A stretch of DNA of 64,000 nt, from positions 1 to 64,000 of the forward strand of contig JAKVCA010000025.1 of NCBI GenBank assembly GCA_022448315.1. Reading direction: 5' to 3'. Of this stretch, positions 61,257 to 62,731 are shown one piece after another. This DNA comes from Pirellulaceae bacterium. Its GTDB lineage: Bacteria; Planctomycetota; Planctomycetia; Pirellulales; Pirellulaceae. The notes under the pieces are model-generated. The model had not been told where the DNA came from and made no database searches. It worked only from the letters and a program-made list of their open reading frames with translations. Every line of letters starts with the position of its first letter. Positions within the stretch are counted from its first letter, which is position 1. The position numbers were made by a program, and so were the translations under genes.

Positions 61257-62570
61257 TCATCGTCGACGCATGAATTCCCGCCACTCTTCGCGAGTCACCT
61301 CTCCATCCTCGTCCAAGTCCGCCCACTGAAGCGGTCCTCGCGCCTCCTGTTTTTGAATCACGCCGTCCCGATTCATGTCCATGCGATGAAACATCGTGCG
61401 AGCCCTTTGAAGATTCAGATCTTGCATCTGCGGCTGCCGTGCACGCCGTCCGTTGGGGCTCCTCGGCATGGCGTCCCGCCGGGAACCGCCATCTGCATCT
61501 CGCGCAAGTTTGACCTGGTATTCCTGAGTTACCGGTTTGCAAAACGTCTCTTTATCATCGCAGGCAACGTACTTCACGGTAATGTCAAAAATCGTTTCTC
61601 CCGGTTGTCCATTCTTCACGGCCACCAGAAACTCTCTCGGATCGGCATCACTGGGCTCTTCCACTGCCGGGCCCCGAAGTCGATCAGGGGTGACCTCCGT
61701 TTGACGAACGGTGATTTCGACCTCAGGAGCACCTACATGATTATTCCAATGAACCTCATAGAGGGGATCCAAAAAGAGTCCGAGATAAAGCTGCCCATCG
61801 CCTTGCTTGAGAAGTGACTCATCGGCCTCAACACGTAGCTTGGCGAAAAAGGGCTCACCACCATTCTGACGCGATACAACCTCCAATGCTGTCATACGTC
61901 CTTCCAGCTTCAGCCGGGGTACGATCCCAGTCGCTGCCGTCTTCGGAGGATCGAGAGGACTCATCCCTACCTGTGCCTCCGCCGTCTCCGGCTTAACCTC
62001 GCCGACCAATTCGGCCAGATCTTCTCTCAACTCCGACGGACTGCACCATGACCGCGATCTGACGATTTTTCCTTTCGGGTCGATGATGAATTCAGAGTTC
62101 GGTGCATTTCCCATGGCATGTTTGAAGTCGTTAGACATGTTGTCGCATAGCCAAGGGATGTCACTTCCGAGTTTCTCTTTAATCTCAGTGACATGCCGCA
62201 GTCTTTCCTCATGATCAAAGGGCGAAACGTAGCCGTTATTCCCCGGATGCGCCAAGGTTTTGTAGATGTAGAAGAACTTGACGCCTTTGGGGTGATAGTC
62301 TCGGTAGATCGCCTCCAAACTGGGGGCGTTTCGAAGAAACGGGGGTCAGGTCAGGCAACCAAAGACGAGGACGGTATAGTGCTCCTTGAGTGTCTTTGTT
62401 AAAAATGGCTGACCTTGCTGATCCCACAGACTGACTTCCGGCAGAGCACCACCCACTTTCGGAACCTGAAAGCTGGCTCGGTTTCGATTGCCCGGCTGAG
62501 CCAAAACAGACGTTGTGAAGAGGGCAAAAAAGACGAGATACTGAAACGCGTACCGAATCTGGATTCTCAT
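61257..62570 (-). CDS. Candidate selenoprotein: deiodinase-like thioredoxin-fold protein with EF-hands
   Basis: A 437-codon gene read through one in-frame TGA (62348-62346, residue 75). ATG at 62570 has GGGAG 6 bases upstream and opens a signal peptide (YLVFFALFTTSVLA). The fold then reads LPEVSLWDQQGQPFLTKT, HYTVLVFGCLT, U, PPFLRNAPSLEAIYRDYHP, and FFYIYKTLAHPGNNGY, matching the iodothyronine-deiodinase/redoxin layout (FGSCTUPPF in vertebrate enzymes, Cys in many bacterial homologues). With Cys72 it forms CxxU. A central beta-rich region ends with two EF-hands (DMNRDGVIQKQE, DLDEDGEVTREE). The frame on both sides of TGA is continuous and family-like, and the true stop is also TGA. Without recoding the protein would lose its whole domain. 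Likely an exported redox enzyme; deiodination itself is not implied. Alternative: recent nonsense mutation or sequencing error. Confidence 0.8.
62310..62328 (-). promoter_or_regulatory. bSECIS-like hairpin
   Basis: On the mRNA, bases 18-24 after the TGA (CGCCCCC) pair with bases 30-36 (GGAGGCG) with one C.A mismatch, leaving apical loop AGUUU. Loop start at about +25 and a G in its first two bases agree with the published bacterial SECIS model (loop 16-37 bases after UGA). A second, competing hairpin CGUUUC-UUC-GAAACG occupies +5 to +19. Pairing was done by eye. Confidence 0.5.
62346..62348 (-). other. In-frame TGA, probable selenocysteine codon
   Basis: The TGA falls exactly between FGCLT and PPFL, the position of catalytic Sec or Cys in the deiodinase-like family. 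Translation continues 362 codons in the same frame. TGA is an ordinary stop elsewhere here, including at the end of this same gene (61259-61257), so a general code change is excluded. Confidence 0.75.
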
Positions 62571-62731
62571 TTCCATCTCCCACGCTGAAGTGTCTTTGAT
62601 CTTTATGTACGATCGCGTGCAACGATCCTTTCGGCGCAGCGCCGACATCAAAGCCTGAACCTATTGAGCGTCCCTCTCGGGTTCCCCTGCTGACAGATGG
62701 ATGGATCGCAATGCGATCTTGCAAGGCGTGA

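Follow-up and report, generated by a model that had tools for sequence, protein, structure and literature searches.

The window analysed here, a stretch of 64,000 nucleotides from a Pirellulaceae bacterium (GCA_022448315.1, contig JAKVCA010000025.1, positions 1 to 64,000), carries on its minus strand a gene whose features are collected in Table 1. Read from 62570 to 61257, it forms one frame of 437 residues with a sole internal TGA at 62348-62346, which lies in the context VLVFGCLT-U-PPFLRNAP (U75) and is followed by 362 further codons. The initial annotation, made from the sequence alone, had described two same-frame pieces split by TGA as one protein with a good ribosome binding site, a signal peptide and a 362-codon continuation, and both its coordinates and its description were right: translation recovers the joined frame with all 362 codons, a GGAG motif precedes the ATG, and residues 3-19 form a helix in the predicted structure model, which fits the expectation for a signal peptide; the protein looks exported. 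No membrane helices were found except for this signal stretch. Without read-through, mechanical ORF calling splits the gene into two pieces that both start at TTG, one of 101 aa (62346-62651) and one of 353 aa (61257-62318), the same two that had been anticipated. The curated NCBI models of June 2026 give the window member no name, and genes of this kind have therefore probably been annotated as pairs of fragments.

Table 1. Features of the selenoprotein gene in the window.
Feature	Position	Strand	Basis or remark
Complete selenoprotein gene	61257..62570	-	437 aa, with TGA stop at 61257-61259
Likely ribosome binding site, GGAG	62577..62580	-	By eye; 6 nt 5' of ATG 62570
Hydrophobic signal-peptide-like stretch, residues 1-24	62499..62570	-	By eye and structure model
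Thioredoxin-fold redox domain (Redoxin/AhpC-TSA, deiodinase-like), residues 38-191	61998..62459	-	Pfam, structure model, profile
Cys72, first CxxU residue	62355..62357	-	Invariant in 21/21 aligned members and 87/87 distinct Sec forms
TGA codon read as selenocysteine, U75	62346..62348	-	Same TGA in relatives
bSECIS-like stem-loop, loop AGUUU, 7 positions per side with one C-A mismatch	62310..62328	-	Comparison
Likely DsbD-alpha-like beta-sandwich, residues 197-364	61479..61982	-	Profiles and model
Cys337, first Cys of second-domain pair	61560..61562	-	Invariant in 21/21; weakly aligned to DsbD Cys
Cys344, second Cys of second-domain pair	61539..61541	-	Invariant in 21/21; weakly aligned to DsbD Cys
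Two EF-hands, residues 389-436	61263..61406	-	Pfam EF-hand_5; tail variable in family

The TGA codon recurs in relatives of the gene. Among the 296 genomes of the same order, strong matches (45-54% identity) span the TGA in 17 other genomes, and full or near-full strong matches with TGA occur in 18 genomes besides its own. Seventeen of these 18 relatives are intact, with a single TGA placed in GC(L/M)TUPPF; the eighteenth (locus L036, genome G261) keeps the Sec TGA together with further stops and a frame break, and is either decayed or poorly assembled. A wider scan with one genome per species gave 234 relatives, of which the best 80 were kept by a similarity ranking that favours Sec forms, and in 80/80 of these named relatives a TGA stands opposite U75. 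This set shares members with the first one (L096 = G212, L071 = G125, and others), and the 98 records of both comprise 87 distinct ones. Because the matches run across the TGA in 17 genomes and the codon is TGA in all 80 named relatives, its conservation is more than chance. The initial annotation had also asked whether U75 aligns to Cys in homologues: all three Cys-form relatives read (L037, L038, L039) have Cys at this site (CLTC), a fourth stop-free match, the second copy in G212, having been left out, and the position matches the Sec/Cys position of deiodinases too (see below). The complete genome G212 carries, on its contig C1 (7825642-7826934 and 5301635-5302651), both a TGA form of the protein and a relative of it that has no internal stop.

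Downstream of the UGA, comparison of the Sec forms reveals a bSECIS-like stem-loop, the first base of which is the 18th base after the UGA. Its loop reads AGUUU or GGUCU in 70 of the 87 distinct sequences, and all 87 have G as their second loop base, a G early in the apical loop being expected of bSECIS elements. In an alignment of 18 sequences, 86.5% of the cells of the seven-pair structure can pair (79.2% in shuffles, with 0/500 as high, and at most 52.4% in slid controls), the covariation score is 0.317 (0.171 in shuffles, at most 0.168 when slid), and both sides are changed in 15 cells (5.5 in shuffles, at most 5 in slid versions). Counted over the same 18 sequences by pairs, changes on both sides were not enriched (3 vs. 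2.0, 105/500 shuffles as high), and the number of further pair types did not favour the hairpin (5 vs. 5.9, 493/500 as high, two slid versions higher). A C-A mismatch in 11/18 sequences makes position 31-41 a partial bulge. Pair 30-42 is standard in all 87 distinct sequences (CG 73, TA 11, TG 3), and pair 27-45 forms in 73/87, mostly as CG, TA and GC; positions 27, 30, 42 and 45 all fall on the third base of a codon (frame assigned by eye), the covariation thus being synonymous. On a quick protein tree, C27 and G45 occurred together in a mean of 6.8 independent pairs vs. 0.0 (median p 0.016, range 0.016-0.125), T27/A45 alone in 4.2 vs. 1.0 pairs (median p 0.375), and pair 30-42 offered only 4 independent pairs (2.6 vs. 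0.0). Of the seven hairpin pairs, 5 to 7 can form in the Sec-form genes, as against 3, 3 and 1 in the three Cys-form genes. In single-sequence folding the window hairpin alone is unremarkable (z -1.62), and hence the case for it rests on covariation.

A search of the organism's own genome for selA, selB, selD and the selC tRNA, which the initial annotation had proposed as a check, recovered all four over their cut-offs. The tRNA-Sec scored 72.3 bits (cut-off 47) and was called by ARAGORN as SeC with anticodon tca; since the tRNA-Sec cut-off was also exceeded in 5/14 control genomes, this call matters, as do the other genes, namely selB (359 bits, cut-off 242), selA (557, cut-off 268) and selD (250, cut-off 125). 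Across the order, selA exceeded its cut-off in 82/296 genomes, namely in 17 of the 19 Sec-form genomes (own included) as against 65 of the 277 others (Fisher p 9e-9, kinship uncorrected). The two Sec-form genomes without it are both assemblies of many contigs: G231 (99% complete) has a tRNA-Sec of 65.8 bits, and in G285 (91% complete) neither selA nor tRNA-Sec was over the cut-off. None of the three Cys-form-only genomes (G200, G243, G095) has selA over the cut-off, and two of them gave marginal tRNA-Sec matches (47.6 and 49.4 bits). The selD of the own genome (L048, G000 contig C53, 55000-55947) lies within an open frame of 767 aa, more than SelD by itself would need; the frame may perhaps be a NADH dehydrogenase-SelD fusion of the type known from marine bacteria, as far as the available part of PMC2398784 describes it. 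With the TGA kept in relatives, Cys in the three Cys forms and the sel genes present, the initial claim of a selenoprotein is borne out, and we conclude that the TGA at 62348-62346 very probably encodes selenocysteine within one read-through protein.

The Sec-containing domain has a deiodinase-like shape combined with what reads, in sequence and model, as a thiol-oxidoreductase motif. The window protein exceeds the Pfam cut-offs of Redoxin (32.2 bits, cut-off 26.6) and AhpC-TSA (31.7, cut-off 26) and falls below that of PF00837, T4_deiodinase (23.5 vs. 27), which matches 20/21 members at E<=0.1 (best 4.3e-7) and gave no match in a search of the own genome, a result made uninformative by its lack of matches in the controls as well. 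No NCBIfam model of June 2026 was over its cut-off on the window protein, the best being NF038285, deiodinase family protein (65.9 bits, cut-off 250), which is also the NCBIfam model matched by most members (21/21, best E 1.3e-21). The full-length model has a pLDDT of 87, and VIA alignment against the 999 chains ranked highest by Foldseek placed mouse Dio2 first (Z 20.4, 155 residues, 1.9 A), followed by Dio3 (Z 19.2, 160 residues, 4.7 A) and ResA (Z 17.8). By E-value, Foldseek ranks DipZ and ResA above the deiodinases for the whole model, its top matches being the DipZ C-terminus laid across both domains at an rmsd of 13-14. Searched against PDB sequences, the family profile finds Dio3 first (5.2e-6; ResA 5.9e-4) and aligns U75 to the Sec/Cys position of Dio3.

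According to the accessible part of PMC11592359, the Dio2 proton relay consists of Ser127, Thr129, Tyr157, Glu160, His162 and His182. Three of these six are kept, namely Thr74, Tyr103 (20/21 members) and His108 (the equivalent of Dio2 His162), and three are lost, Ser being replaced by Cys72 in 21/21 members and Glu by Leu106 (Leu 19, Val 2), with the second His falling, by manual counting, within an insertion; Pro157 is kept in 20/21 members. Thus the AHP region that had been likened to deiodinases does align through its His, and the description of the protein as deiodinase-like stands insofar as deiodinase cores are its nearest solved relatives and U75 falls on their Sec/Cys position, but it is limited by the scores below the PF00837 and NF038285 cut-offs and by the loss of half of the relay residues. 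The same order also holds other deiodinase-like proteins: L042, L046 and L047 have a TGA in (Y/F)TU(P/G)PF, with L046 and L047 bearing REAHP as well and lying nearer to deiodinases than the window protein, and L040, L041, L043 and L045 are Cys versions with EF-hand-like stretches (by eye) N-terminal of the domain.

Behind the Sec domain lies a second domain that carries two invariant Cys residues; neither this domain nor its Cys pair figured in the initial annotation. Taken alone, it matches DsbD_N (PF11412) in 12/21 members at E<=1 (best 5.3e-5), and full-length members do so in 4/21 at E<=0.1; for the window protein itself, the isolated domain had no Pfam match at E<=1. A PF11412 search of the own genome found nothing and matched in 3/14 controls, which places the second domain, along with the N-terminal part of the genome's own DsbD, beyond the reach of this profile. 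A separate model of the domain (pLDDT 91.8) retrieved the E. coli DsbD N-terminal domain as Foldseek rank 1 (E 3.5e-3, prob 0.99, TM 0.29/0.38, rmsd 7.7), with no match reaching E 0.001, and in VIA the DsbD-alpha entries had Z scores of at most 7.4, below unrelated rows at 8.0-8.2, so that other beta-sandwiches are not separated. An hhalign alignment to E. coli DsbD sets C337 and C344 on its Cys pair, weakly (E 0.0034, probability 9.6), and the second-domain profile found nothing among PDB sequences up to E 5. We regard the second domain as likely DsbD-alpha-like.

The C-terminal tail of the window protein scores 37.6 bits against EF-hand_5 (cut-off 25.9) over two stretches. The same family matches only 10/21 members, the others stopping early or bearing other tails, and the EF-hands are therefore optional; the initial description of an EF-hand-fused protein was correct as to the two EF-hands, but they do not define the protein. 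In L024-L027 the EF-hands are replaced by a different C-terminal module, some 60-80 residues long, which by eye looks alike in these members.

The 87 distinct Sec rows in the tree are labelled as 40 Planctomycetota, 18 Acidobacteriota, 7 Verrucomicrobiota, 1 Kiritimatiellota, 1 Poribacteria and 20 without a phylum, the named Sec-form genomes being nearly all metagenome bins whose labels may be wrong; one complete planctomycete chromosome with the Sec form is CP036526.1 (L096). Two clades take in fourteen of the 18 Acidobacteriota rows and a single one holds four of the seven Verrucomicrobiota rows, with the remainder scattered, and an old spread with some transfer of the Sec form is plausible. 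When frames of at least 120 aa around 20 loci (one decayed copy and one Cys form included) were clustered, no neighbour was common to all loci; the widest cluster covered 6/20 loci, and the three-locus clusters came nearly all from one genus.

A possible redox partner is encoded in the same genome. A DsbD_TM search of the own genome found one protein (L151, 247-2727, plus strand; G000 contig C65, about 4.4-5.7 kb), the frame of which breaks off at a TGA lying precisely in the gamma-domain motif. With this codon translated as Sec, the sequence runs through FVDFTADS-U-LTCKVNE with 102 residues after U725, and a six-pair hairpin lies 3' of the UGA (z only -0.54). Judged from this sequence, the genome's only detected DsbD is likely a selenoprotein with UxxC in its gamma domain; UxxC forms of Sec-containing thiol:disulfide interchange proteins already appear among the known selenoproteins in the accessible portion of PMC13188914. 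A UxxC DsbD was verified in 7/19 family genomes (L152, L154, L155, L161, L162, L166, L181), the motif was read as Cys in 11/19, and G282, outside the verified count, has a TGA. No DsbD match with an internal TGA was found in 12 comparison genomes (nine with selA and without a window-type protein, three with Cys forms only). The co-occurrence of UxxC DsbD and the selenoprotein (7/19 verified vs. 0/12, p 0.026, with comparison genomes of our own choosing) is only suggestive, and, since UxxC DsbD was verified in only 7/19 genomes, it is not an obligate partner.

Taken together, we consider it fairly probable that the gene encodes an exported CxxU selenoprotein with UGA decoded as Sec, a DsbD-alpha-like domain serving as a built-in electron shuttle, and an optional EF-hand tail; the best reading of its function is that of a periplasmic CxxU oxidoreductase that carries its own electron-accepting domain. 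The UGA at 62348-62346 would be decoded as Sec by SelB, tRNA-Sec and the hairpin that starts at the 18th base, a step strongly supported by the sequence comparisons. Sec75 and Cys72 would then form the CxxU redox pair of the thioredoxin/peroxiredoxin-like domain: to judge by motif and fold, the Sec would attack an oxidised substrate, such as a peroxide, a protein that is oxidised or bears a disulfide bond, or another compound reducible by selenium, and Cys72 would resolve the oxidised Sec as an Se-S bond. The pair Cys337/Cys344 could accept electrons from membrane DsbD and hand them to the Se-S bond, so that the shuttle would be built into the enzyme itself, while the EF-hands are predicted to be an optional Ca2+-binding tail. 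As the only detected DsbD is likely a UxxC selenoprotein, two selenoproteins, this DsbD and the window protein, may act in series. A selenium-to-selenium relay across the inner membrane, running from the Sec-gamma DsbD through the DsbD-alpha-like domain of the CxxU enzyme to oxidants of the envelope, is a tentative extension, to which we assign a distinctly lower probability.

The decoding step itself has to be weighed against other explanations of the TGA. The codon is a stop in the standard code and the relative in G261 may indeed be decayed, so the window gene might be taken for a pseudogene, or its TGA for a miscalled TGC, TGT or TGG; yet the same TGA stands in 17 intact and in 80/80 named relatives, from many assemblies and one complete chromosome, and 362 conserved codons follow it. 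This comparison with relatives makes a pseudogene or sequencing error very unlikely, and we rejected both with hardly any residual doubt. For a changed code, in which TGA would be read as Trp or Cys, no supporting evidence was found; the window gene as well as L021, L022, L024, L031 and L034 terminate in TGA, the Sec machinery is present, and the covarying hairpin would stay unexplained, on which grounds this explanation, too, was rejected as having next to no chance of being right.

The chemistry is less constrained. Deiodinase cores are the top VIA matches and Dio3 the top PDB profile match, the Sec, Thr, Tyr and AHP His align to deiodinases, and PF00837 is found in all but one of the 21 members at the relaxed threshold given above, all of which would suit a true bacterial deiodinase-type enzyme that reductively removes iodine or another halogen from organohalogens. 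However, the relay Glu is Leu/Val and the Ser is Cys in 21/21 members, the second His lies within an insertion (residue roles as given in the part of PMC11592359 available), the PF00837 and NF038285 cut-offs are missed, and better deiodinase candidates exist in the same order, where L040, L041, L043 and L045 keep REAHP(S/E)DGW. Strict membership of the deiodinase family is not supported by these cut-offs and relay residues, and a deiodinase-type activity seems improbable to us. A cell-envelope Sec peroxidase of peroxiredoxin-like type, with Cys72 resolving, is a better contender, though still a doubtful one: Redoxin and AhpC-TSA are over their cut-offs, and the Sec stands second in the motif, just as it does in the TxxU given for Sec peroxiredoxins in the table excerpt of PMC13188914, but the first motif position is Cys rather than Thr, and CxxU together with Pro157 looks more like thiol-disulfide oxidoreductases. 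We therefore retain the periplasmic CxxU oxidoreductase as the preferred reading.

These findings add a widely shared CxxU selenoprotein group, and the joining of a bacterial deiodinase-like fold to a DsbD-like reducing domain would offer a testable electron route to Sec enzymes outside the cytoplasm. Moreover, the genome also encodes a likely Sec form of DsbD, a hint that these bacteria invest selenium in the redox chemistry of their envelope.

Parts of this architecture have been met before. The initial annotation held an exported, EF-hand-fused CxxU form to be undescribed; this has to be narrowed, since a fusion of EF-hand and deiodinase-like selenoprotein from ocean metagenomes was reported in 2021 (PMC9402790, as far as its available text shows). 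In the accessible part of the 2026 table of prokaryotic selenoproteins (PMC13188914), the redoxin family is given as UxxC, and no CxxU entry with a redoxin or deiodinase-like domain was found. Deiodinase-like selenoproteins, too, appear as UxxC in the excerpts of the 2022 and 2026 (PMC13188914) selenoprotein tables. Planctomycete selenoproteins include FdhA and FmdB according to the portion of PMC4807772 at hand, whose full candidate list (table S9) may contain the window protein. A literature search returned no paper joining selenoprotein, DsbD and Planctomycet, and the match for selenoprotein, deiodinase and planctomycetes has, in its visible text, algae and plants as its subject. Hence the combination of CxxU, a DsbD-alpha-like domain and a variable tail appears to be new, within a kind of selenoprotein that is already known.

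Of the known systems, the bacterial deiodinase-like selenoproteins (PF00837; PMC1088965, from the part available) share with the window protein a thioredoxin-fold Sec domain that is known in Sec and Cys forms, whereas the window protein has GCLTU (CxxU), lacks the relay Glu and Ser, and carries the likely DsbD-alpha-like domain in addition. A Prx-like U/CxxC selenoprotein from ocean metagenomes, fused to PF11412 (a domain there named DsbC), combines, as the window protein probably does, a redoxin-like Sec domain with a domain of the DsbD N-terminal type; compared by its description in the accessible text of PMC9402790, it has Sec at the first motif position, unlike the window protein with Sec at the second, and that text mentions no EF-hand tail. 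With the thiol-disulfide oxidoreductases of the ResA/TlpA type the window protein has in common the exported thioredoxin fold and the CxxC position, as reflected in the ResA Z score of 17.8, but in it the second Cys is Sec and extra domains follow. Finally, the second domain probably resembles the DsbD alpha domain (nDsbD) in its beta-sandwich and in a Cys pair matched in one weak profile alignment; in contrast to DsbD, it is joined to the C-terminal side of a Sec domain, and the protein has no membrane helix other than its signal stretch.
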